DNA of 47,913 nucleotides, taken from positions 1 to 47,913 of the forward strand of contig JARGGJ010000011.1 in assembly GCA_029210915.1 (NCBI GenBank), in the 5' to 3' direction. The notes below the pieces were generated by a model, which saw only the letters and a program-made list of their open reading frames with translations, had not been told where the DNA came from and made no database searches. This DNA is from Patescibacteria group bacterium (GTDB lineage Bacteria; Patescibacteriota; Patescibacteriia; 2-12-FULL-60-25). Of the stretch, positions 6,792 to 25,675 are shown in pieces; within the stretch, counting starts at the first letter, position 1, and every line of letters starts with the position of its first letter. Made by a program: the position numbers and the translations under genes.

Positions 6792-9700
6792 TTACTCTAT
6801 TGTTGTTTCCGTATCTGGTTCTGTATTTTCCACTTTCGGAGGTGTGATTTCGATTACAACCACTTCCTCTTCGACGACTTCAGCCTCACCCGTTTGATCA
6901 GAATCTGCTGAAGTTTCACCTGTTGTATCTGATGTCGTATCAGTGCTTGTATCGGTTGTTAAATCAGCACCTTCATCAGTTGTTGTATCAATAGTTGAGT
7001 CGGCGGTAGAATTTTCAGTGGAATCAGTGCCCGGTTGCGTCTCGGAAACTGCATCAACAACACCTTCGTCGGTTGTAGTTGTCATGCCCGAATCAGCAGG
7101 ATCCTGGCCAAGTGCATTAATCTCTGTTTCCAAATCCGATGCTCCCATATCGTTTACTATTATATCCATCGTTGTTCCATTGGAAACATAAACCCTACCC
7201 TCGTTGTTGCCAAAAGCATGCCAGTTAAACAAGATATCCGCATATTGTACTTCATCAAGCACTATATCGAACCCTTGTAACGATGCATTCTCCACCCAAT
7301 AAGGAACCGTAACTTTTCCGGCCGGAGTAAGTGTAACTATTGGCAAAGTTCCAAAATCTTCTGCAAAATCAACGGTCACTCTGTTATCACCCGTCATAAT
7401 CATCGCTTGCCCAACAACGTCCTTGCCAAAAGCCACATGGCCTTTAACCGTAATATTGCCTTCAAAAACCGCATTCGCAACAACCAAGTCCACAGCATCC
7501 AAAGTATCATCTCCACCCTGAAGTGATGTGCCCGCTACGGAATCCTGAATATTATTCTTATCAAATGATTCAAAGAATACGGAGATCTTTTTATGTTTAA
7601 CGCCATTAACCTGTGTCGAAACATGTGTCCAATCTACAGATTCGGCCGCACGAGCAACGATATGGCTAACCATAAATTCTCCAGTATCCTTTTGTGCGTG
7701 GCCCGCGATGTCTGATGAGATAAAGTAATCTCCAATACCAATATTCTCACCTTTATCCGCGACCCAAACCTCACCATTACCTACGGCCATAATCAGATGC
7801 GGATTATGCTCATCACGTGCCATTCCCGGCTCTTGTAATGACAAGTAAGAACCCATTATTTTTGCGTCATTAACTTCGGTGGATATTGTAACGCCATACA
7901 GAATTTCGGAATTTACATTATTATGTAAATTACGATTTTCTCCGGTTAACGATACTAACATGCCCTTTTCAATATTCTCATTTGTCCAAGCATAGTGGGA
8001 ACCGGTAAACGCATTGTAGGAAACTGTATTTGCAGATACAGAAATCGTACCTTCTTCAACACCGGCTTGTCGCAAAGAAATGATTGTTCCGTCACTGGTT
8101 GTACGATCAAACACGGCAACAACATTACCGGATTGTTCAACATGGAAACGAGCAAGCGGAGCATTTGTACCTATACCAACTCTATCATTCACGGCACTTG
8201 TATATAACAAGTTAGCATTAGTATCACCCTCAACCCTTAATCCCACGCCGGTTGCCCCACCGTCGTTTATAACCAAACCACTGTTGGTAAATAAACCCAC
8301 GCGGGAAGCACCATTTCTAAATTCAATCGCTCCGCCATTACCCGTTACGTTATAATCCCATATCATCAAATTACTTGCGATTGGTATATACAATCTATGA
8401 TCAACATCCCCATTACCCTGCAAACGCATATATTCGTAATCAGCTGCGGATCCTGCGGTGGTATTACCAACATGTAATTTAGCTAACGGTACGGATTGAT
8501 CAAAGCCGACATAACCGTTGGTTGCATCTACAAACATTGCATGTGTATTTGTATCACTTTCCACTCTAAAATCTACATTTGCCAAACCACCATCATTGAT
8601 AATAAAGCCATTGTTTAAGAATTTTCCAACTTCAGCTGTTCCATCTTTGATAATTAAAGCACCGCCGTTTCCGCTGGAATTAACGTTCCAATTGGTCGCG
8701 TTACCGCCACCCGAAAAATATATTTCACTTTGAGTATCACTGTTGTTGGTTGATTGAAATTTTAACAGTGTAACATCAGCCAAAGAATTATTACCGGCAA
8801 TTTCCAATCTTGCATCCGGTGTAGCGGTACCGATACCCAAATCTCCGTCATCGGTTAAAACAAATGGAGTTGTATCTAAAGCCTCATCCGTTATATAAAA
8901 TGTATCCCCGGTTCCTGAATTTGCCAATCTAAACACAATACCTGATGATGAATTACTCATGTCAAAAACATCACCGGTTCCGTTATTGGTTAAATGAAAC
9001 AAATCACCCGAACCACTCGGTTTGGAAATATTAATTGATGCTTTACCTAAAGTATCTTCGATATAAATACCGGAACCATCAGTATCATTATCAATGCGAA
9101 GACCATTACTACTATTTCCATCATTTAAAATCTGAAGTCCGGTTCCACCTGCATTGGTATCAATTACCATTCCATCATTTGCAGTATTATTGTCGAGTAA
9201 GAAACCTCTACCATTGTTTTGTCTGATATACATACCCAACCCTGTGCCGGATTGCGCAACTGTAATACCTTCCCCTGCACCGGAATTATTATAGGCAAAT
9301 CCTTGATTCGTACCGGAATAATCAATCTGGAAAGCCGTACCGTTTCCCGCTCCGCTTAAGCGAACCGCACCGGAATCAGCAATAATTTGCCTGCCTAAGC
9401 CGGCACCTCCGGCATCATATGCCTCATCCAGTGTAATCGATCCTTCATGCTCCAACGCTTTCCACGCGGAACCATTCCAAAAGAATGGCGTGGAAGAAGC
9501 CGTGTTGTAAATCATGGCACCCGCTTGCAATCCGCTTGCCGGGTTAAGTGCATATTGGCCAAGCATGAATTGCGCGCTTAAACGTGCATCACCAACAACA
9601 TCCAAACGGTAAATAGGACTCGAGGTAGACAAACCGACAAAAGCATTATCATCTACTCTTATTGCATCTTGATGATTATTTACGGCCACACCAAAACTCT

Positions 9701-12700
9701 GTCTACCAAGACTCATAGAAGATTGATTGCTTGCATAATATAAAGCAAAACCTTCCTCCGGATTAAAATTAAAAACCAAATCCCCACCAAATGCATTCAA
9801 GACATCTGCGGCACGGATTTCGAAGTGATCATATTCATCATTGATATTTTGCAAAACCCTTGCGTATCCACCAAGTGGGCTATTGATTGCCACCAACGGT
9901 TCTCCTGTGGTGGAATCAATTTTCATAGCCTCATTACCCGCAACATCGAAACGAATTATATCCTCGTCCGCAGACTCCTCGACTTGAATACCTGTGTCAT
10001 GATCCGTATCCCACATAGAACCCGAACCCGCTAAAGAAACCCATTGACTTCCATTATAGAAGAACGGCGTGGATGAGGCTGTATTGTAAATCATGGCACC
10101 TGCTTGCAATCCGCTTGCCGGGTTAAGTGCATATTGACCAAGCATTAATTGCGCGCTTAAACGTGCATCGCCCACTACATCAATATCATAAGCCGGGTCG
10201 ACAGTACCGATACCCAAACCATTGTCACTCAAGTGCATCATGGTTTCGCCCCAACCTTCGGAAACTAAAGATAAATCACGCATGACCTTAATGATTGAAT
10301 TTCGGTCGTCAACCGGATTCATGTAGACCGAGAGATAACCATTATTGGCACCACCGCCAATACGGAAAAGATTATCACCCGGCGTTGCGCTGCCCTGAAC
10401 GTCTATCTTTCGGGTCGGTGATGTATCACCGATTCCCATATTTCCACTGGTGGAAATAACTACCTGATTAGACCAAGATCCATCGTAATGACCAAAGTTT
10501 ATATTATTGCTCGTGTCCAAACCAACACGCGCATAATTAACACCGTCTCTCTGATAAGTTGTATAAGCCGTTCCTTGTGTTCCTGCCAATTGTCCATCAG
10601 TAGCTCTGATAATCAACTGCCTGTCATAACCGCCGATTGGATAAATAGAACCGTCAAATTGCCCGATTAACATGTCATCGTTCAAAGACAATAGCTCTTC
10701 GGGAACTTCTGTACCGATACCAACGTAACCATCCGTGGTAATTCTCATCATTTCACTATTGCCACTTTCGGAGATTGTGAATGCTCCATTATCAGCTTGT
10801 GCCAAATCCCAAGTCGAAGTGCCCACGTGAACAATACCACTCCAAAGATCAGACCAACGATAATCGGTATTGCCTAAAGAATAAGTATTGTGAACGCTCG
10901 GAATAATATCGCCAACCGATGTAGCACCTGCAAATTGAATCCAATTAGTAGTCGTGGCTCCGCGATCAGTTACATCTTGCAAGGTATCAGTTCCTAAAAC
11001 ACTTGTACTTGCCCAAGCAACATTACCATCACCATTTGTAACTAAGATTTGACCGGAATTACCATCAACCACAGGCAAAGCATAACCGGTACTGGAGGGA
11101 TTGTTAATTTGCAAAGCTCCGTTAATTCTAAACACATTGGTATCAAACTCACCATAAACCAAAGGCGTGGCCGTATTGGAGTTATCTATATATAAACGAT
11201 TCGAATTTGTTTCGCTATAACCCGCCTGGTAACCAAGAAAGATGTTGCCGTTCCCAAGCACATTATTATAACCGGCATCACGGCCTAAAAACAAATTACG
11301 AGTTCCTGTGGCATTAGCTCTACCTGAATTATATCCAAGGAAAATATTGTCATCACCAATATTAACTCTTCCGGCATTTTCACCTAAAAATATTCCTCTG
11401 TTTCCTTTATTTTCTAAACCCGCGGATAAACCAAACAATATGTTACTGCTTCCCTTATTATCATAACCGGTATAATAACCCATCATGATGTTGTTATCGC
11501 CCGTATTATACCAACCTGTGCCACGACCCATAAAAAAGTTACCCGTACCGCCACTTTCCATACCCGATTCATAACCAATCATCACATTATTATTGCCCGT
11601 AGATTGATAACCGGCTTTATAGCCAACCATCGTACCTCCAAAAGCACCCGAATAATTTCTACCCGCGTGATAACCAATAGCTGTTGTGTTATTAGGATTA
11701 GCGTGACTGTAAAGTGCCTCATAACCTACTGATACATTGTATAATCCGGTTACATTGTTATAACCGGCCGAGTTACCTACATAAACATTTTGTCTGTTAG
11801 AAAGATTGTCCACTCTACCGGCATTCTGACCCAAGAAGACCGAGGAACCGGAATTTAGCACACTTATACGAGGGCCTTGCATGGTGAAGTATTCGGTTCC
11901 CGCCGTATCAAATCTAATGATATCTTCATCGGGCGATTGCTCGACTTGTATACCCGTATCATGATCCGCATCCCAAAGTGAACCCGCACTTGCACCGGAT
12001 CCTCCGAGTGCAATCCACTCGGTTCCATCCCAATAAAACGGTGTCGATGATGCTGTATTGTAAACCAAAGCGCCGCTGCGAATTCCGCTCACCGGATTAA
12101 GCGCGTGTTGACCAAGCATAACTTGATTGGTTGCGTACAAATTTGTTCCGGTAGCATTCACAAACAAACCTCTTGTGGATGAAGTTAAACCCTGCACAAT
12201 AACATTTGAAGTTACGTTAACATCAACGCCTGATTGAAAGTCCATACTGTTGGAATCCATAGTCGCAACTGTAATCGGCGCCGAATAACCTCCACCGATT
12301 TGATAGCGGATTATAGAGCTGGCTCCCACTGCACCCAAAACTAAATTTTTATCTGTAGCCAAAACACCATTTCCCGCCCAGGTTGGAATCCAAAACGCCG
12401 CTCCATATTTGCCAAAGTACATGTTGTTTGTATAATCAGCGCCACTGCCTTTCATTTCAACCACAGCTCCCGCGTAATTACTTACGTCATTTGTATTCAC
12501 CGCCTTAAAGCCCGTTAAAGTGCTGGCATTATTATTTGTTACCGCAATTTGATAAACACCGGAATCTGTTGGCGACAACACATTCGTATTTTTCTGCCAA
12601 TGATTGGAATCCGCTCCGGCCAAAGCAAACCAACCCGTGTTGCCCGCATCCGTTGTTTTTACATACAACTGCTGGCTGCTGCCCGTGCCATCGGTTCTAA

Positions 12701-15700
12701 AAAATATACTTCCGCTTTCACCGGTTACTTTTGCCTCCGGAGTGCTAGTACCAACACTCATGCGAATCTGGTTGCTAAAAGATGGGCCCGGAACACGAAG
12801 AGACATGGAAGGTACATTGTAATTAGTTGCGTTAATACTAAACGCTCCATTGGTTACTGATCCCGGAATATTTAAAGCCATTTGGCTGTAATCGATATAA
12901 AAACTGGAATTCCTTGTACCTGCAGTTTGATATCCAAATTCAAAAGCGCCCATGGTGTTATCGTTGTACATGTAAGCCCCGGTTCCATTTACCGGATCCG
13001 CTGTATTATCTGTAAAATATAAACGACTTCCATAATCACCAAATTGCTCCATGGTTTGCATTGCCAAACCACCTCCGTTTACTCCATTGGTTAATGCCAA
13101 AGAAGTTTCCCATTGGTCTGTGCCCGGATTAATAATCTCTACCGGATTGGCATTATTCAATGTAAATATCTGCCTGCCCAAAGCACTGCCACCGGCACTA
13201 TAAGCCGCGTTTAATGTTGTAGTCGCTGAAACGATTGCACTGTCAACATATTCCTTATCCACCAAAGATCTATTTGTATAATTTGCCGAATAATCAGCTA
13301 AATAAGTTGCGCCCGTAAAACCAGCTGAACCTGAAAACTGAATATTATCTTTATTTTGTAATAAATTGGTATGAGTAACACCATCAGAATAATAATTTGC
13401 GAAATTCGTATTATTAAATAATTGATAATTATTTGCATTTTGAATTCTAAAATCAAAATTTCCGTAATTAATTGTTGTGCTTTGAGTTAAATTACCACCC
13501 AAATCAATTTCGTTGTTTACTCCGTCCCAAGTTAAACCACTACCCGCCGAAGCACTTAAATAATTATCTACATAAGCTTTATCCACCAAAGAACGTGGTG
13601 TAAAATCTGCCGAATAATCAGCGCCATATTCTATACCCGTGGTAGTAGCTCTGGCGTCATAAAAAACTACTGCCGCCGGATCCAAACCGTTCGCGGATTT
13701 AAAATTTAATTTTGTTCCTCCCGCTTCCGCCATTTCCACTTCATAACCGCCCGGAAGCGCTTCTATCTTAAATGCTCCGCCATCATCCTCGGTGGCCGCC
13801 GCGCCTGTTTCATAATAAACATAACCATCGGCTGTAATAGTATTATCGGCAACATCCTGAAAAGTAAGCGCTCCAACATGAGAATCTACATAGCCCTTAT
13901 CAACCAAAGAACGATCTACAAAGTAGGATGAATAATCTTTATCATAAACCAAACCAAGAAAATCAGTCCTGCTAGAATTTACTCCAACGTAATCATTGTA
14001 TGTTAACAAGCTGAAAGTGGAACTGGGATTCTCTAAGGTAAGTCCTACACTGGTAGGTCCGCCGATTCCAAATCTTACCTCATAGTCACCATCTTGAATC
14101 TTAAAGTTATCTCCCGAAAATAAAGTCTCCGGCTCGCCGGCAAATTCACGTACAACCAAATCATAACCCATATGATCTATATATGTGGTTTCCGACAATG
14201 TCCCGCCCAATTTGATTGTACCTGAATCCAAAGTTAAACCATTGCCTGCAGAAACCGTGCTCGATGTTATGGCATCGTCAACATATTCCTTGTCGACCAA
14301 GGTTCTATTGGTATAATTCGCAGAATAATCGGACGCGTATTCTATACCCCTGTAATTTATACTATCAGTGAGCATCATGTTGGATCCGATATAAAATTGC
14401 GTCGTGCTCCCTGTTTGATTATGCGTAAAAGATACGCCCCCCGAATTAAAGACCATGCCCGAATAAGCAGAAGGATTCGCTACATTCAATTCCAACTCAT
14501 CCGAACGAACATGTACAAATCCAAGGTCCGAACCATCTCTGATATCAGCATCAAAGAAACCGCCATTGGTAGTGCTCACGTTCAAGCCACGACCAATGCC
14601 GTTAACGATTCTATCGCCGGCCAAATAACCATCAGCATCATAAATATTGTTGGTGCTCGAGGCTACTTTATTATCTACATACTCTTTATCAACCAAAGAT
14701 CTAGCTACGAAATCAGCTGAATAATCGGCCGCATAACGCAAACCATATTGTGACCCCGCGGCTCTTAAATCCATGAATAGATTATCACCGCCTATTCTTA
14801 ACAAACCGGTGTTGCCGTACATGTCTATTTGGCTGGTGCTCGCATCCAATTCAATGCCATGCTGGGAAACCATTTTAAAATTATCCATGAATTCCAAATA
14901 ATGGTTCGTATTGCCTTCATCATTATTAACAGCTCCAATTCTTAAATTCCCATTGGTATTATAATCCGGTTTTATATACACAAAATTAGCTGAATTGCCC
15001 TGATCTAAAAATCTCAATTCCTGGCCGTCGGCGATGGTTACATTACGATTTTCCGGTATTAGTCCATCTGAATTATATATGTTATAAACCAAATCCGAGG
15101 ATGTAGCCCAGCTCAATGTTCCGGCGCCGTTAGTGATCAAAACTTGATTGTTAGTGCCATCAGCACCGGGCAATGTCCAGGCAACATTGTTAGCAACGCT
15201 GGCAGGAGCTCTAAACCCGACATAATTGCTTCCATTGGCTACAAGCTCTCGGTATTCTGTAATACTTGTACCGGCTTTACCACTAACAAAAACAACATCA
15301 CCTTCATTAAAACCGAATTTTTGATCCCCTGTATCAACACCAAACCAAGTACCATTATCCGCCGCATCAAGATCACCTATACCAATATTTTGAGTTTCTG
15401 CTCCTCCTCCGGAATTACTATAACCGATACCAGGAGCAATGATTCTATTTCCTGAATTATCGTAAATTTCAAAACTATAATTACCCGGAGTATTTCCAAA
15501 TTGAGCCACCTTATTACCAACGGCAAATAATTCTATCTGATCATTATCAGTTCCATTATCAACCTGAATTCCGGTATCTCCATCAACGTCCCAAACAGAA
15601 CCGGCACCATCTACATTTCTCCAATATAAAGTTCCGGAAGCATTGGTTGCCAAAGCTTGTCCGTTTAAAGTTCCATCAGATCCAGGTAATGTCCAAATGG

Positions 15701-18062
15701 TTGAAGTGGTTATGGAGGCTGGTGCTAAAAATCCCACATGCTCACCACCGCTAGCATCCATAAATTTTATTGGCGCTCTGCCAAACATATATGATTCCGT
15801 AGGTTGATCTAATCTTATATATGTACTACCACCATAAGAATTTCCATAAGCACCTCCAATATCACCCATCATGAAGGTAAAATCATTATTAGCCAAACTT
15901 CCCATGGCTGTAAAAATATCTTCACCATCTTCATCTCTAAAGGCTACAATTCCGGTATCACCCGGATTTCCGTTGATGGAAAGAGCCGCATTCATGTGTC
16001 CGCCTTGGCCAATTTGCAAACCGGCGGTTAATGGTCCGGTTGTATTAATACCAATTTTGCCATCATTTTGGATGAACATTCTCTCTACTCCGGCTGTATC
16101 AAATCGTATATAATCCTCATCCGCCGATTCCTCTACCTGTACACCCGTATCATGATCCTCGTCCCAAAGCGAACTGCGAACATCTTCTGCTGTCGCGACG
16201 GTGCGCCACTGTGTGCCATCCCAATAGTGAACAGTCGATGAAGCGGTATTATAAACAACAGCACCCGATTGATTGCCACTGCCTGGCAATACCGCATATC
16301 TACCGAGCATCAATTGCGCGCTCAAACGAGCATCGCCCAAAACATCCACTACATATGCCGGAGTATCGGTTGCGAAACCGAAATTTCCCGAATCTGTCAT
16401 GTGTAAGCGAGAAAATCCACTTTGAGTGATATTAAAAGTTGTACCACCTGCCAAATCAAATCCCGAACCCGATGTACCACCTAAAAATTTCGCGCTTTGT
16501 ACGCCGTTATTCTTAAAAATCAAATAAGCAGCGTCCGATCCGTTATTATTATCGGAATTAATGACAATACCGGCATCCATACCCGATGCACTTCCATCAT
16601 CAGAATCCAAAGTTAATAAAGCCGATCCATTAGATCCGCCCTGAACATGCAATAAAGTTGATGGCAAGATTGTTCCAATACCCACCTTGCCCGTAGAATC
16701 AATCATCATTCTGGTAGCCCAACTCAAACCATCCCAATTATCAAAATTAATACTGTTCAATGTATTTATCCCTATTCTTGCAATGTCTGAAAAATTTCTT
16801 TGAAAAGTTGTATAAGCACTGCCCTGAGTTCCCGGAGAAAAACCATCTATAGCTCTTAATATAAGATTCGCATTTTTGCCTCCCGGAGGAGTAATACCCT
16901 CATATTGACCTATTAAAACAGTATCTCTTACAGAAAGCATCTGCTCCGGTTGATTGGTACCAATACCTACATTACCATTACTCGCGATTCTCATTCTTTC
17001 ACTGCCTCCGTTTTGAGAAATTGTGAACGCACCATTGCCGGCCTGCGTCAAATCCCACGTGGATGTGCCAACATGAACTATTCCACTCCAAAGATTAGAC
17101 CAGCGCAAATCCGTATTGCCTAAGCTATATGTATCGTGAGCTCCCGGAATAATATCGCCCGTGCTTGTTGCCCCTGCAAATTGAATTCTATTTGTCGTGG
17201 TTGCTCCATTATCCGTAACCTGTTGTAGATCGATTGCAAACAAACTGGATGATACGGCGGTTATTGCTGTGTCCAAATCAAATAACGCCGCCTGGACAGT
17301 TGTTGCGTTTGAATTTGTAAACTCATCAAAAACTCCAACCAAATATGCACCCGAAGTTGTATTGTTTGTGCCTGTTGAATCTAAACGAATCGCTCCAATT
17401 GCCAAATACTCATCTAAATTAAGCGAAGTTCCTGTTGCTACTGCAAATGTTAAATTTTGCAAAGTCGATGTTCCGGTTATCGTTAACCCGCCGCCAAAAT
17501 ACGTTCCTGTTGCGATATTAAAGCTCAAATCATTTTCCAAAGCTAAAAGCTGGCCGCCCGTAGCAGTTGTAGTTGCCTCTAGCGAGTTCACTCGTTGTGA
17601 ATTTAACGCATATGGGAAAGATGCCAATAAAACTCTAGGTGCCGCTTCCGCGTCTGCAGAGATTTTTACACCTAAGTACAGCGGAGAATCAAACTCGATG
17701 TAAGCAGGGAACGCCGAACAAGATCCAAGTTGCACGAAAAAGTACCCCTGGGCATCGGGTTGTACGCTCGAACAAGCGCCCGAGGCTTGATCATAAGTTT
17801 CTTTCCACAACAAAGGCCCCGCAGAACCCGGAGCATCTACACTCGAACCATTCGAGATGTGATTATAAAGCGAGAACTGAATTGTTGTGGTCGCTGTAAT
17901 TGGAACTCCGCCGATTGTCCTCAAACGAGATTGATAATTTATCGTCTGCGGTATCTGCGCATTCGCTGTTAGCACAGGCTGAAAAAGTGACAGCAATAAA
18001 GCCACGCCTGAAAGAATGGCACCAATTTTTTTGGTGTATGTTTTTTGTTTTTGACGCCCCAT
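6792..18062 (-). CDS. giant secreted repeat protein (3756 residues), probable surface fibre or adhesin
   Basis: The gene is intact over 11.3 kb. A signal peptide (residues 1-35, ending LTANA) is followed by an N-terminal domain beginning QTINYQSRLRTIGGVP and ending near RVLLASFPYALNSQRV. Then come many tail-fibre-like modules: repeats with VGIGTNQPEQML-type strings; four or five blocks with RLSAQLMLGQYALNP and YNTASSTPFFWNGS; blocks with DHDTGIQVEESADEDIIRF; five copies of a YSADF..RSLVDKEYVD module (DNA about 13.2-14.7 kb); and a YadA-head-like beta-roll region (DNA about 11.2-11.85 kb; VYVGNSAGYNN, NIFLGYQAGYS). The C-terminus has a GDYFISSDIAGHAQK domain, a possible Ig-like part and a long Thr/Ser/Asp/Glu-rich tail. 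I saw no S74 peptidase, LPXTG or clear membrane anchor. The likely role is host or surface contact (inference). It has no Shine-Dalgarno site. Confidence 0.9.
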   Translation of the reverse strand: MGRQKQKTYTKKIGAILSGVALLLSLFQPVLTANAQIPQTINYQSRLRTIGGVPITATTTIQFSLYNHISNGSSVDAPGSAGPLLWKETYDQASGACSSVQPDAQGYFFVQLGSCSAFPAYIEFDSPLYLGVKISADAEAAPRVLLASFPYALNSQRVNSLEATTTATGGQLLALENDLSFNIATGTYFGGGLTITGTSTLQNLTFAVATGTSLNLDEYLAIGAIRLDSTGTNNTTSGAYLVGVFDEFTNSNATTVQAALFDLDTAITAVSSSLFAIDLQQVTDNGATTTNRIQFAGATSTGDIIPGAHDTYSLGNTDLRWSNLWSGIVHVGTSTWDLTQAGNGAFTISQNGGSERMRIASNGNVGIGTNQPEQMLSVRDTVLIGQYEGITPPGGKNANLILRAIDGFSPGTQGSAYTTFQRNFSDIARIGINTLNSINFDNWDGLSWATRMMIDSTGKVGIGTILPSTLLHVQGGSNGSALLTLDSDDGSASGMDAGIVINSDNNNGSDAAYLIFKNNGVQSAKFLGGTSGSGFDLAGGTTFNITQSGFSRLHMTDSGNFGFATDTPAYVVDVLGDARLSAQLMLGRYAVLPGSGNQSGAVVYNTASSTVHYWDGTQWRTVATAEDVRSSLWDEDHDTGVQVEESADEDYIRFDTAGVERMFIQNDGKIGINTTGPLTAGLQIGQGGHMNAALSINGNPGDTGIVAFRDEDGEDIFTAMGSLANNDFTFMMGDIGGAYGNSYGGSTYIRLDQPTESYMFGRAPIKFMDASGGEHVGFLAPASITTSTIWTLPGSDGTLNGQALATNASGTLYWRNVDGAGSVWDVDGDTGIQVDNGTDNDQIELFAVGNKVAQFGNTPGNYSFEIYDNSGNRIIAPGIGYSNSGGGAETQNIGIGDLDAADNGTWFGVDTGDQKFGFNEGDVVFVSGKAGTSITEYRELVANGSNYVGFRAPASVANNVAWTLPGADGTNNQVLITNGAGTLSWATSSDLVYNIYNSDGLIPENRNVTIADGQELRFLDQGNSANFVYIKPDYNTNGNLRIGAVNNDEGNTNHYLEFMDNFKMVSQHGIELDASTSQIDMYGNTGLLRIGGDNLFMDLRAAGSQYGLRYAADYSADFVARSLVDKEYVDNKVASSTNNIYDADGYLAGDRIVNGIGRGLNVSTTNGGFFDADIRDGSDLGFVHVRSDELELNVANPSAYSGMVFNSGGVSFTHNQTGSTTQFYIGSNMMLTDSINYRGIEYASDYSANYTNRTLVDKEYVDDAITSSTVSAGNGLTLDSGTIKLGGTLSETTYIDHMGYDLVVREFAGEPETLFSGDNFKIQDGDYEVRFGIGGPTSVGLTLENPSSTFSLLTYNDYVGVNSSRTDFLGLVYDKDYSSYFVDRSLVDKGYVDSHVGALTFQDVADNTITADGYVYYETGAAATEDDGGAFKIEALPGGYEVEMAEAGGTKLNFKSANGLDPAAVVFYDARATTTGIEYGADYSADFTPRSLVDKAYVDNYLSASAGSGLTWDGVNNEIDLGGNLTQSTTINYGNFDFRIQNANNYQLFNNTNFANYYSDGVTHTNLLQNKDNIQFSGSAGFTGATYLADYSANYTNRSLVDKEYVDSAIVSATTTLNAAYSAGGSALGRQIFTLNNANPVEIINPGTDQWETSLALTNGVNGGGLAMQTMEQFGDYGSRLYFTDNTADPVNGTGAYMYNDNTMGAFEFGYQTAGTRNSSFYIDYSQMALNIPGSVTNGAFSINATNYNVPSMSLRVPGPSFSNQIRMSVGTSTPEAKVTGESGSIFFRTDGTGSSQQLYVKTTDAGNTGWFALAGADSNHWQKNTNVLSPTDSGVYQIAVTNNNASTLTGFKAVNTNDVSNYAGAVVEMKGSGADYTNNMYFGKYGAAFWIPTWAGNGVLATDKNLVLGAVGASSIIRYQIGGGYSAPITVATMDSNSMDFQSGVDVNVTSNVIVQGLTSSTRGLFVNATGTNLYATNQVMLGQHALNPVSGIRSGALVYNTASSTPFYWDGTEWIALGGSGASAGSLWDADHDTGIQVEQSPDEDIIRFDTAGTEYFTMQGPRISVLNSGSSVFLGQNAGRVDNLSNRQNVYVGNSAGYNNVTGLYNVSVGYEALYSHANPNNTTAIGYHAGRNYSGAFGGTMVGYKAGYQSTGNNNVMIGYESGMESGGTGNFFMGRGTGWYNTGDNNIMMGYYTGYDNKGSSNILFGLSAGLENKGNRGIFLGENAGRVNIGDDNIFLGYNSGRANATGTRNLFLGRDAGYNNVLGNGNIFLGYQAGYSETNSNRLYIDNSNTATPLVYGEFDTNVFRINGALQINNPSSTGYALPVVDGNSGQILVTNGDGNVAWASTSVLGTDTLQDVTDRGATTTNWIQFAGATSVGDIIPSVHNTYSLGNTDYRWSDLWSGIVHVGTSTWDLAQADNGAFTISESGNSEMMRITTDGYVGIGTEVPEELLSLNDDMLIGQFDGSIYPIGGYDRQLIIRATDGQLAGTQGTAYTTYQRDGVNYARVGLDTSNNINFGHYDGSWSNQVVISTSGNMGIGDTSPTRKIDVQGSATPGDNLFRIGGGANNGYLSVYMNPVDDRNSIIKVMRDLSLVSEGWGETMMHLSDNGLGIGTVDPAYDIDVVGDARLSAQLMLGQYALNPASGLQAGAMIYNTASSTPFFYNGSQWVSLAGSGSMWDTDHDTGIQVEESADEDIIRFDVAGNEAMKIDSTTGEPLVAINSPLGGYARVLQNINDEYDHFEIRAADVLNAFGGDLVFNFNPEEGFALYYASNQSSMSLGRQSFGVAVNNHQDAIRVDDNAFVGLSTSSPIYRLDVVGDARLSAQFMLGQYALNPASGLQAGAMIYNTASSTPFFWNGSAWKALEHEGSITLDEAYDAGGAGLGRQIIADSGAVRLSGAGNGTAFQIDYSGTNQGFAYNNSGAGEGITVAQSGTGLGMYIRQNNGRGFLLDNNTANDGMVIDTNAGGTGLQILNDGNSSNGLRIDNDTDGSGIYIEDTLGKASINISKPSGSGDLFHLTNNGTGDVFDMSNSSSGIVFRLANSGTGDTFYITDEALDTTPFVLTDDGDLGIGTATPDARLEIAGNNSLADVTLLKFQSTNNSDTQSEIYFSGGGNATNWNVNSSGNGGALIIKDGTAEVGKFLNNGFIINDGGLANVDFRVESDTNTHAMFVDATNGYVGFDQSVPLAKLHVGNTTAGSAADYEYMRLQGNGDVDHRLYIPIASNLMIWDYNVTGNGGAIEFRNGASRVGLFTNSGLVINDGGATGVGLRVEGDTNANLLYTSAVNDRVGIGTNAPLARFHVEQSGNVVAVFDRTTSDGTIISLRQAGVEEGTISVSANTVSYNAFTGSHYAWTNENIEKGMLVSLTGENRNLHNNVNSEILYGVTISTEVNDAKIMGSYLSLQEPGMARDEHNPHLIMAVGNGEVWVADKGENIGIGDYFISSDIAGHAQKDTGEFMVSHIVARAAESVDWTHVSTQVNGVKHKKISVFFESFDKNNIQDSVAGTSLQGGDDTLDAVDLVVANAVFEGNITVKGHVAFGKDVVGQAMIMTGDNRVTVDFAEDFGTLPIVTLTPAGKVTVPYWVENASLQGFDIVLDEVQYADILFNWHAFGNNEGRVYVSNGTTMDIIVNDMGASDLETEINALGQDPADSGMTTTTDEGVVDAVSETQPGTDSTENSTADSTIDTTTDEGADLTTDTSTDTTSDTTGETSADSDQTGEAEVVEEEVVVIEITPPKVENTEPDTETTIE
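9395..16330 (-). repeat. internal coding repeats of the giant protein
   Basis: Recurrent coding modules are visible at DNA level. The SLVDKEYVD module recurs at about 13230-13315, 13565-13630, 13875-13950, 14275-14345 and 14660-14735. The MLGQYALNP/YNTASSTPF module recurs at about 9450-9590, 10030-10180, 12010-12120 and 16210-16330. Copies are diverged between families but nearly identical for the 9.5 and 10.1 kb pair, suggesting recent duplication or gene conversion there. Confidence 0.75.
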
Positions 18063-23296: not shown

Positions 23297-23788
23297 TTAA
23301 TTCAAGTATTGCAACATCGCATTCCCTTGCTCTACTGTTTTTTTATAAAAATCTTTTAATGATCGGAAATGTCCTAGTAAATAATCAAAGTCTTCATTTG
23401 AACAGCTACTTGCAAAAGGATATATTTCAGCCTTTTTAATTTTTTCAGGGTCAAAACGATTTTTTAAGTCTTCTTCCGTTATATCTTTGAAAGCATCATA
23501 AATTTCTTTTACTTTTTGAGCTTCAATATAGCGAGCTGGTCCATATCCTATGTCATCACCTATAGCGACTCCTCCCATGACAACATATGCTAATGGAGGT
23601 TCCCCGCCCTCCCAATTACTTCCTGTAAGTAAAAAATGAATACCTTCCCAAGCTTTATCAATGTCAATATGATCATTGAAAATTGAATCATCATCAGGAT
23701 ACAAAAAATTCTCGATCAATTGAGGTTTTTGTTTCAGCTCTTCAAGCTTAGAGGGTAAAATAAACTTAAAATTTGCGATCATTGACAT
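23297..23788 (-). CDS. DUF1877 (YfbM-like) family protein
   Basis: The 163-residue product begins MSMIANF and has the family's landmarks: IDIDKAWEGIHFLLTGSNWEGG, then VVMGGVAIGDDIGYGPARYI and a C-terminal YLLGHFRSLKDFYKKT segment. DUF1877 proteins are small cytoplasmic proteins of unknown function, scattered across bacteria including E. coli YfbM. The gene stands alone between two long gene-free stretches, with no ribosome binding site, no evident operon and AT-rich composition like its surroundings. Scattered distribution of the family suggests it may be acquired, but composition gives no support. Confidence 0.85.
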   Translation of the reverse strand: MSMIANFKFILPSKLEELKQKPQLIENFLYPDDDSIFNDHIDIDKAWEGIHFLLTGSNWEGGEPPLAYVVMGGVAIGDDIGYGPARYIEAQKVKEIYDAFKDITEEDLKNRFDPEKIKKAEIYPFASSCSNEDFDYLLGHFRSLKDFYKKTVEQGNAMLQYLN

Positions 23789-24123
23789 AATATATAGTTA
23801 AAATTCTATATATGAATTATTTTTGAAAAACCCTTCCCATACTAACAAATAAACCACACTTTTGTAATACTAAACATGATTTTTCACTATTCAGTTACTA
23901 TAACAAAATAACTGTTTTGAAAAACTAATTTAGACAGGTCTTACAGGCCTCGGCCGTTTATACTTATATAGTAGATGAACCATACAGGCTGTAAATTTTT
24001 TGTACTTTAATGATGTTTTATCGCTATATATAAACAATATCTATGCGTCGTAAAATATATAGAATATTTTTCATCCCTGTGGAACAGTTGAGAACAATAA
24101 ATATAAGAAATGCATTCCTTATG
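23789..24123. other. gene-free AT-rich spacer left of the parS cluster
   Basis: I see no coding frame and no strong hairpin. The sequence TATATAGTTAAAATTCTATATA at the left end is a near-palindrome overlapping the likely start region of the DUF1877 gene. Confidence 0.4.
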
Positions 24124-24168
24124 AAACCTCCTTTAGTAAAGGAGGTGCCGAGTCCTACGAGGCGGAGG
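24124..24168. repeat. hairpin repeat, copy 1 (attached to a parS site)
   Basis: The unit has a near-palindrome CCTCCTTTAGTAAAGGAGG followed by TGCCGAGTCCTACGAGGCGG AGGA. It ends fifteen bases before the first parS palindrome. The shape, a hairpin plus GCC...GGC, resembles REP-type intergenic repeats. The same unit occurs at 24649 and 25134 with the same distance to a parS. Confidence 0.85.
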
Positions 24169-24182
24169 ATTAGTCTTAAAAT

Positions 24183-24198
24183 TGTTTCATGTGAAACA
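24183..24198. promoter_or_regulatory. parS-type palindrome 1 (one-base variant)
   Basis: TGTTTCATGTGAAACA differs by one central base from TGTTTCACGTGAAACA, the ParB-binding parS consensus known from Bacillus subtilis and many other bacteria. Confidence 0.75.
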
Positions 24199-24244
24199 AT
24201 TGACTGTCAAACAATCTTCATCTAAATTACACGTGGAGGTTCCA

Positions 24245-24562
24245 ATGATCTTTTCATCACAAGATACTCAAAATTCACCAAACATTCTAGATTTACAAAT
24301 TGGTCAAGTACTTATACATGATCAAAATCAATTGTTAGCTGTTGTAATCGGAATTAGCATAAGTGTTCCGAACTTTGCAACTGAAGGCTATGATCAAATA
24401 CTAGTTATTACAGAAAAAACCGGACCAATATTTCTTTCTGCCTACAAACGCAAAGATGGAAAAAATGATTTTGAGGAATACTCATTATTGAATTCAAAAT
24501 TGACAGCATTTGAAATTAAAAATTTACCCAATTCTTTAAATACCATCCGCTCTACAATATAG
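24245..24562 (+). CDS. small protein of unknown function inside the parS cluster, paralogue 1
   Basis: The frame gives 105 residues from ATG 24245, which has a clear Shine-Dalgarno site (GGAGG, seven bases upstream). The frame could extend upstream through a parS palindrome, but the ribosome binding site decides the start. The protein has no signal or membrane segment. Its core LDLQIGQVLIHDQNQLLAVV aligns with FSEIKLGQVTYVKESDTLFVV of the next small gene, and both continue through G, a loop, then a glutamate-rich strand (ILVITEKTGPI versus IHLLSETGNIS), so the two are paralogues. A short hairpin (ATAGAC-tctac-GTCTAT) with a T-run follows the stop and leads straight into parS 2. Function unknown. 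Confidence 0.7.
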   Translation: MIFSSQDTQNSPNILDLQIGQVLIHDQNQLLAVVIGISISVPNFATEGYDQILVITEKTGPIFLSAYKRKDGKNDFEEYSLLNSKLTAFEIKNLPNSLNTIRSTI

Positions 24563-24579
24563 ACTCTACGTCTATATTT

Positions 24580-24595
24580 TGTTTCACGTGAAACA
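24580..24595. promoter_or_regulatory. parS palindrome 2
   Basis: This is an exact TGTTTCACGTGAAACA, 17 bases after the stop of the first small gene and joined to its terminator T-run. Confidence 0.85.
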
Positions 24596-24648
24596 AAATA
24601 TTAAAAAACTATTTAAACTTTAGAAAAAATATATGTTACTCATATTGA

Positions 24649-24692
24649 GACCTCCTTTAGCAAAGGAGGTGCCGAGTCCTACGAGGCGGAGG
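24649..24692. repeat. hairpin repeat, copy 2 (attached to a parS site)
   Basis: The unit is nearly identical to the 24124 copy (CCTCCTTTAGCAAAGGAGG then TGCCGAGTCCTACGAGGCGG) and again ends about fifteen bases before a parS palindrome. Confidence 0.85.
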
Positions 24693-24706
24693 AATTGTTC
24701 CGAAAT

Positions 24707-24722
24707 TGTTTCACGTGAAACA
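24707..24722. promoter_or_regulatory. parS palindrome 3
   Basis: This is an exact TGTTTCACGTGAAACA, within the longer palindrome ATTGTTTCACGTGAAACAAT, located between hairpin repeat 2 and the second small gene. Confidence 0.85.
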
Positions 24723-24768
24723 ATTGACCAAATTACCAAAATTGGTATATTTACCCTGGAGGTAATCA

Positions 24769-25059
24769 ATGAATTCACACCGCACCTTAGATTCAATTCC
24801 ATTTTCAGAAATAAAACTAGGTCAAGTAACTTATGTAAAAGAGTCTGATACTCTATTTGTAGTTTGCGGACTTAACCCGGAATTCCCTGGAAAGTATACT
24901 CCGCGAGAAAGTGAAATACATCTATTAAGTGAAACCGGCAATATTTCACATATATTTCATGAATGGGGCGATAATCAAATATTGATTGATCATATTATTC
25001 CAGAAAATCTTTGGTCTCAATATCAAAAACAACTAAAAAACATCCGCAAATCTCTTTAA
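24769..25059 (+). CDS. small protein of unknown function inside the parS cluster, paralogue 2
   Basis: The 96-residue product starts at ATG 24769 behind a good Shine-Dalgarno site (TGGAGG, seven to eight bases upstream). It is soluble, begins with a polar stretch and shares the xxxLGQV...LxVV core and glutamate-rich second strand with the 24245 gene, then ends in a basic helix (WSQYQKQLKNIRKSL). A small terminator (AGCAAC-ttt-tGTTGCT, then Ts) follows and runs into parS 4. The arrangement hairpin repeat, parS, gene, parS repeats that of paralogue 1. Function unknown; a DNA- or ParB-associated role is only suggested by position. Confidence 0.7.
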   Translation: MNSHRTLDSIPFSEIKLGQVTYVKESDTLFVVCGLNPEFPGKYTPRESEIHLLSETGNISHIFHEWGDNQILIDHIIPENLWSQYQKQLKNIRKSL

Positions 25060-25080
25060 AGCAACTTTTGTTGCTATTTT

Positions 25081-25096
25081 TGTTTCACGTGAAACA
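25081..25096. promoter_or_regulatory. parS palindrome 4
   Basis: This is an exact TGTTTCACGTGAAACA, 21 bases after the stop of the second small gene and overlapping its terminator T-run. Confidence 0.85.
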
Positions 25097-25133
25097 ATTG
25101 ACTGAGGTATATAAATTAGATCAATTCATTTCG

Positions 25134-25179
25134 AAACCTCCTTTAGTAAAGGAGGTGCCGAGTCCGACGAGGCGGAGGA
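25134..25179. repeat. hairpin repeat, copy 3 (attached to a parS site)
   Basis: CCTCCTTTAGTAAAGGAGG is followed by TGCCGAGTCCGACGAGGCGG and ends about fifteen bases before parS 5, as in the other two copies. No small gene follows this copy. Confidence 0.85.
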
Positions 25180-25193
25180 ATTGTCGGAAACTT

Positions 25194-25209
25194 TGTTTCA
25201 CGTGAAACA
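25194..25209. promoter_or_regulatory. parS palindrome 5
   Basis: This is an exact TGTTTCACGTGAAACA, placed like parS 1 and 3 after a hairpin repeat. Confidence 0.85.
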
Positions 25210-25218
25210 AATTAACTG

Positions 25219-25347
25219 TTGTGCCACGTGAAGCCGGTACTTTAAATTCTTAGCCCCGTAAAATTAATTTCGCTATTTATTCTATTTCTACATTAATCAC
25301 GGGGCACGTAAAAAGCCGCCCATTTAACTAAGCGGCTTTTTACGTGG
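25219..25347 (-). repeat. tRNA-downstream element, copy 1 (at tRNA-Ala)
   Basis: Reading away from the tRNA 3' end, there is a terminator-like hairpin (AAAAAGCCGC/GCGGCTTTTT within CACGTA...TACGTG), a GCCCCGT/ACGGGGC pair enclosing an AT-rich loop, and finally the box GTGCCACGTGAAGCCGGTAC. The same three parts in the same order follow tRNA-Cys at 34372-34534. The loop differs between copies, so the shared parts look conserved or mobile. Confidence 0.7.
25307..25344 (-). terminator. terminator of tRNA-Ala
   Basis: AAAAAGCCGC and GCGGCTTTTT form a ten-base stem ending in a T-run on the minus strand, immediately after the tRNA CCA end. Confidence 0.75.
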
Positions 25348-25420
25348 TGGACTGAGGGGGAGTCGAACCCCCGACCTCTGCAATGCGAATGCAGCGCTCT
25401 ACCAACTGAGCTATCAGCCC
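25345..25420 (-). tRNA. tRNA-Ala (anticodon CGC)
   Basis: The 76-base cloverleaf includes an encoded CCA. The acceptor stem GGGCTGA/TCAGTCC has the G3-U70 pair that identifies alanine tRNAs. The D arm GCTCAGTTGGTAGAGC and T arm GGGGGTTCGACTCCCCC are standard. The anticodon stem CTGCA/TGCAG encloses TTCGCAT, giving anticodon CGC for GCG codons. The gene lies between parS 5 and parS 6. Confidence 0.97.
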
Positions 25421-25511
25421 AAAATCAAACTTATACTTTCTAAGTCACACTATCTATCTCAAACATCCAACTCTTGCGAGATCTCGCGAGAGAGAACTAA
25501 GCTGTCAAAAT

Positions 25512-25527
25512 TGTTTCACGTGAAACA
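25512..25527. promoter_or_regulatory. parS palindrome 6
   Basis: This is an exact TGTTTCACGTGAAACA between the two tRNA genes, the right-hand end of the cluster. Confidence 0.85.
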
Positions 25528-25600: not shown

Positions 25601-25675
25601 TGGCGTTCCCGGGTGGAATCGAACCACCAACTAGGGCTTAGGAGTCCCTTGTTATATCCATTTAACTACAGGAAC
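25601..25675 (-). tRNA. tRNA-Arg (anticodon CCT)
   Basis: The 75-base cloverleaf has encoded CCA and discriminator G. Acceptor stem GTTCCTG pairs with CGGGAAC, the T arm is GGTGG/CCACC around TTCGATT, and the D stem is GTTA/TAAC. The anticodon loop CTCCTAA gives anticodon CCT for AGG codons. One A-G mismatch closes the anticodon stem. Confidence 0.95.

Follow-up and report, generated by a model that had tools for sequence, protein, structure and literature searches.

A modular parS cluster near dnaA in a Patescibacteria genome, probably enlarged by local tandem duplication

Tightly packed parS sites are known from Myxococcus xanthus, which carries parAB and has 22 of the sites near oriC, within about 3 kb. 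The cluster lies about 4 kb upstream of parA, its consensus is TGTTCCACGTGGAACG, and ParB shifts cluster DNA (PMC3899335). In Pseudomonas aeruginosa, ParB represses promoters beside the intergenic sites parS3 and parS4 (PMC5521831). We describe here a parS cluster from a Patescibacteria group bacterium (assembly GCA_029210915.1), found in a window of 47,913 nucleotides that spans positions 1 to 47,913 of contig JARGGJ010000011.1. By DnaA comparison the organism falls near Komeilibacteria, Kerfeldbacteria and Falkowbacteria, with 51-54% identity among named genomes. Features of the locus are collected in Table 1.

Table 1. Features of the parS cluster and its immediate surroundings, in window positions.
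Feature	Positions	Strand	Basis
Decayed parS, first parS of module 1, TCATCCCTGTGGAACA, 10/16 to consensus	about 24072..24087		register alignment with module 3
Hairpin unit copy 1, ACCTCCTTTAGTAAAGGAGGTGCCGAGTCCTACGAGGCGGAGGA	24126..24169	+	repeat search, folding, alignment
parS 1, CATGTG center, second parS of module 1	24183..24198		pattern match
Promoter-like TTGACT-17-TAAATT, -35 starts 2 bp after parS 1	24200..24228	+	consensus scan only
Small gene 1, 105 aa, no known family	24245..24562	+	ORF and profile searches
parS 2, first parS of module 2	24580..24595		exact match
Hairpin unit copy 2, loop AGC	24650..24693	+	repeat search, folding, alignment
parS 3, second parS of module 2	24707..24722		exact match
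Promoter-like TTGACC-16-TATATT, -35 starts 2 bp after parS 3	24724..24751	+	consensus scan only
Small gene 2, 96 aa, diverged paralog of gene 1	24769..25059	+	ORF, BLASTP, shuffles
Terminator-like hairpin of gene 2, T run adjoining parS 4	25060..25075	+	consensus scan
parS 4, first parS of module 3	25081..25096		exact match
Hairpin unit copy 3, no gene after	25136..25179	+	repeat search, folding, alignment
parS 5, second parS of module 3	25194..25209		exact match
tRNA-Ala(CGC), beside parS cluster in most relatives	25345..25420	-	tRNA search
parS 6, single, between tRNA-Ala and tRNA-Arg as in many relatives	25512..25527		exact match
tRNA-Arg(CCT), conserved neighbor	25601..25675	-	tRNA search

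All six parS sites of the original prediction, five exact and one with a changed center, were recovered within 1.35 kb, against 0.34 expected at up to three mismatches. They match the parS consensus, the 16-bp palindrome TGTTTCACGTGAAACA. Rather than being spread evenly through the 1.46-Mb genome (49 contigs), every parS found by a genome-wide scan at up to two mismatches lies inside this 1.35 kb. A search for parA and parB elsewhere in the genome found a single ParA-ParB operon, on contig 18, with ParA directly upstream of ParB. This ParB is the only one in the genome (ParB_N E = 4.8e-35), and it aligns with solved ParB, Spo0J and Noc proteins over the N-domain and HTH, with a best E-value of 1e-50. 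The genes dnaA-dnaN occur about 14-17 kb from the cluster on the same contig, in agreement with the 17 kb first given for dnaA, so that the sites are near the origin as judged by dnaA. Because the genome has a canonical ParA-ParB operon, and because the position near dnaA is conserved, the identification of these palindromes as parS is well supported. By analogy with the respective protein families, ParB made from the contig 18 operon would load onto the tightly grouped sites and then spread, and ParA, perhaps with SMC, would move replicated origins apart.

The original prediction took bacterial parS sites to be usually scattered singly, and the clustering to be unusual. Neither view holds for this group. 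Canonical parS, allowing up to one mismatch, was found in 31 of 57 sampled genomes, the present one included, and ParB in 55 of the 57. We fetched 30 loci (L046-L075) from 29 relatives. Relatives have from 1 to 11 parS per genome, grouped at one locus, and their clusters are as dense as that of the window and occupy the same syntenic place. tRNA-Arg(CCT) adjoins 28 of the 30 loci, usually accompanied by tRNA-Ala and S20; the two without a nearby tRNA lie at contig ends. In 12 relatives dnaA and parS share a contig, and there about 9-19 kb separate them. The gene order dnaA-dnaN-polA-holA-S20 is conserved, with polA-holA-S20 flanking the cluster in family genomes and dnaA-dnaN lying beyond. In the window, as in related Patescibacteria, the cluster has the dnaA/dnaN-polA-holA-S20-tRNA segment on one side and a secreted-protein gene on the other. 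Since the relatives have such clusters, as does M. xanthus with its 22 sites in 3 kb (PMC3899335), a tight parS cluster is not unusual. Tight clusters are already known; the modular array is lineage-specific variation. Our literature search for parS in Patescibacteria returned nothing specific among open papers.

Several further observations were made at these loci. Across 152 parS sites (the window plus L046-L075), dyad symmetry reaches about 4 bp past the 16-mer, and the flanks covary, with z = 7.0, 3.7, 4.2 and 2.5 at positions 1-4. A similar extension was seen for 35 sites from a mostly Firmicutes set (L096-L160). Some parS sites are part of longer perfect palindromes, 36-42 bp in length (for example at L051:10194 and L061:10303), which may be terminators or cruciforms. 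One relative has a GIY-YIG nuclease-like ORF inside its parS cluster (L054:10543-10815), the last codons of which (NVSRETF) are parS sequence itself, and another has an orphan ORF inside the cluster (L047). A near-identical terminator-like hairpin, GCCGCTTA..GCGGCTTTTTACGTG, occurs upstream of parA (contig 18, L010:120-160) and after tRNA-Ala (window 25305-25346). In the window, a DUF1877 gene (E = 1.2e-45) adjoins the cluster (23297-23788, minus strand); tblastn did not find it at relatives' parS clusters. A single ORF of 3756 aa (6792-18062, minus strand) lies 6 kb from the cluster, followed by putative surface proteins containing Big and DUF4215.

The interpretation we favor, with fairly good confidence, is an ordinary ParABS centromere enlarged by local duplication, in which ParB probably represses two parS-adjacent promoters. 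Repeat finding and alignment delimit a unit present in three copies: a parS is followed after about 55 nt (after 70 in copy 2) by the 44-nt hairpin unit and, 13-14 nt further on, by a second parS. In module 1 the first parS has decayed, with its register kept. All three hairpin copies of the original prediction were confirmed, and their distance to parS is revised: the predicted figure of about 15 bases is 27-28 nt when counted from the end of TGCCGAGTCC, and becomes 13-14 nt only if the count starts where the longer conserved unit (..GGCGGAGGA) stops. Upstream of the hairpin the repeat continues for about 60 nt, a stretch that takes in another parS (parS 2, parS 4 and the decayed site). Aligned in register, copies 1 and 3 agree at 38 of 61 positions of their upstream arms; at its second-best location in the window, the arm of copy 1 reaches 31 of 61. 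Spacers of the module copies score 86-95 against one another, compared to 37 for the cross-genome 99.9th percentile, with tRNAs masked because tRNA sequence inflates the threshold. The window and three other genomes (L061; L065, weakly; L069/L070) have similar spacers within a cluster, the unit sequences being unrelated, and most relatives' clusters show no internal spacer repeats (tRNAs masked).

This register changes how the array is read. A parS does follow each small gene, as first described, but because the repeat extends upstream of the hairpin, that site belongs to the next module, as its first parS; a consensus terminator follows gene 2 only, gene 1 having a weaker hairpin at its end. 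Module 3 had been placed ahead of tRNA-Ala. The tRNA is on the minus strand, and module 3 is therefore downstream of its 3' end rather than ahead of it in transcription.

Both small genes are coding-like in frame. The description of them as paralogs was correct, although they have diverged: BLASTP aligns the products at 28% identity over 72 aa (E = 0.003 for a single comparison), and 2 of 2000 shuffles reach the same score. Searches of Pfam, PHROGs, NCBIfam and PDB profiles returned nothing significant for either protein, and no homologs were found in class genomes or IMG/VR, in phages (gene 2 query) or in plasmids (gene 1 query). An AlphaFold2 model of gene 2 from a two-row alignment had a mean pLDDT of 50.8, a quality too low for searching by fold. 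The offset between hairpins 1 and 2 is 524 bp, exactly that between the gene starts, and the offset between hairpins 2 and 3 is 486 bp. The shared 524-bp offset and the paralogy of the genes favor tandem duplication over insertion or capture. The array is best explained by tandem duplication, in this species, of roughly 500 bp comprising parS, hairpin, parS and small gene, which would leave three parS-hairpin-parS modules, the last of them gene-less, and a pair of genes now diverged from each other. We give little credence to an insertion-prone cassette locus, whether integron-like or a hot spot, that captured genes between repeated parS-hairpin sites. The unrelated small genes inside relatives' clusters (L054, L047) would suit such a locus, but the two genes here are paralogs at equal offset, which indicates duplication and not capture, and the relatives lack hairpin sites.

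Any two copies of the hairpin unit are identical at 44 of 46 positions. Folding gives the same 9-bp stem in all three (z = -3.3 to -5.2) and a different fold for the second half of the unit in each. A fourth copy was not found in the genome at up to three mismatches, the unit was absent from 380 other class genomes searched, and the exact hairpin pattern had no match in GTDB contigs or IMG/VR. The class sample comprised 381 genomes out of a larger group, so close relatives outside it could carry the hairpin. A co-occurrence of hairpin and parS in related genomes, proposed earlier as a check, was not seen: relatives have parS, and none of those searched has the hairpin. The predicted hairpin-parS module with its own gene family survives as a modular arrangement in this genome only; with hairpin and genes unmatched elsewhere, it appears to be a local tandem duplication rather than a recurring cassette family.

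The copies are short, near-identical and confined to one genome, and they are GC-rich, at 54% in a region of 36%, all of which might also suggest a small mobile or REP-like repeat inserted beside parS. We consider this highly improbable. The copies number only three, at one locus, in one orientation and in the same register as the parS sites and gene starts; neither the rest of the genome nor the relatives show the further copies of a dispersed REP or MITE element; and the equal offsets of flanks and genes already favor tandem duplication. A different proposal makes the hairpin a 5' leader RNA that regulates both genes in cis, parS being incidental. The hairpin has a perfect Shine-Dalgarno sequence as its right arm, AAAGGAGGU, which the left arm, ACCUCCUUU, would sequester. 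The common stem agrees with this proposal, as does the placement of the hairpin unit, the most conserved part of the repeat, in sense orientation upstream of both genes. We nonetheless judge it unlikely, because the third copy has no gene after it and the best promoter-like sites are downstream of the hairpin. In addition, each gene has its own GGAGG close to the ATG, the second half of the unit has no common fold, and no Rfam family matches over the unit at gathering or permissive thresholds. The sequence GTGCCGAGTCC.. was considered as a short ORF and dropped, as it has no start codon with usable spacing.

Tandem duplication, the preferred explanation, has one result to accommodate. The hairpin copies are identical at 44 of 46 positions, whereas the gene products are about 28% identical, a contrast that points to selection on the hairpin, to gene conversion, or to unusually fast divergence of the genes. 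Plain duplication, with neither selection nor conversion acting on the hairpin, would not account for the contrast, and this counts against that simplest form. The hairpin could serve as a DNA operator for the two promoters, could be a leader RNA, or could be a passenger of the duplication. There is a slim chance that the 44-nt hairpin acts as an additional centromere element, specific to this lineage, which binds some protein, possibly a small-gene product, that cooperates with ParB. In that event, the parS-hairpin-parS module would be a real functional unit, and the orphan genes would encode a fast-evolving centromere-linked regulator.

Repression by ParB is proposed because the likely promoter of each gene starts 2 bp after a parS. 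The promoter calls are consensus matches and weak ones, with 12 found where 7.9 are expected. ParB at the second parS of a module would probably repress the promoter of the adjoining gene.

The centromere of this group thus appears to be a compact parS cluster at one conserved tRNA/S20 locus near dnaA, while site number and intervening DNA change rapidly, in some lineages by local duplication. This bears on a question raised in a review of ParABS systems, namely what drives parS clustering and variation in parS number (PMC7333895). To this picture the hairpin and the orphan genes add only a minor local feature. Relatives' clusters (L046-L075) share the parS consensus and the place beside tRNA-Arg(CCT) with the window, which differs in having the hairpin unit. 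P. aeruginosa resembles it in having parS1-4 near gene promoters near oriC, and offers a model for silencing of the small genes; its adjoining genes have other functions, and the accessible part of that account describes no repeat unit or hairpin (PMC5521831). As in M. xanthus, many parS sites are packed tightly near the origin in a genome with parAB (PMC3899335), but here parS and parAB are on different contigs, and a module of hairpin and gene appears to have been duplicated.
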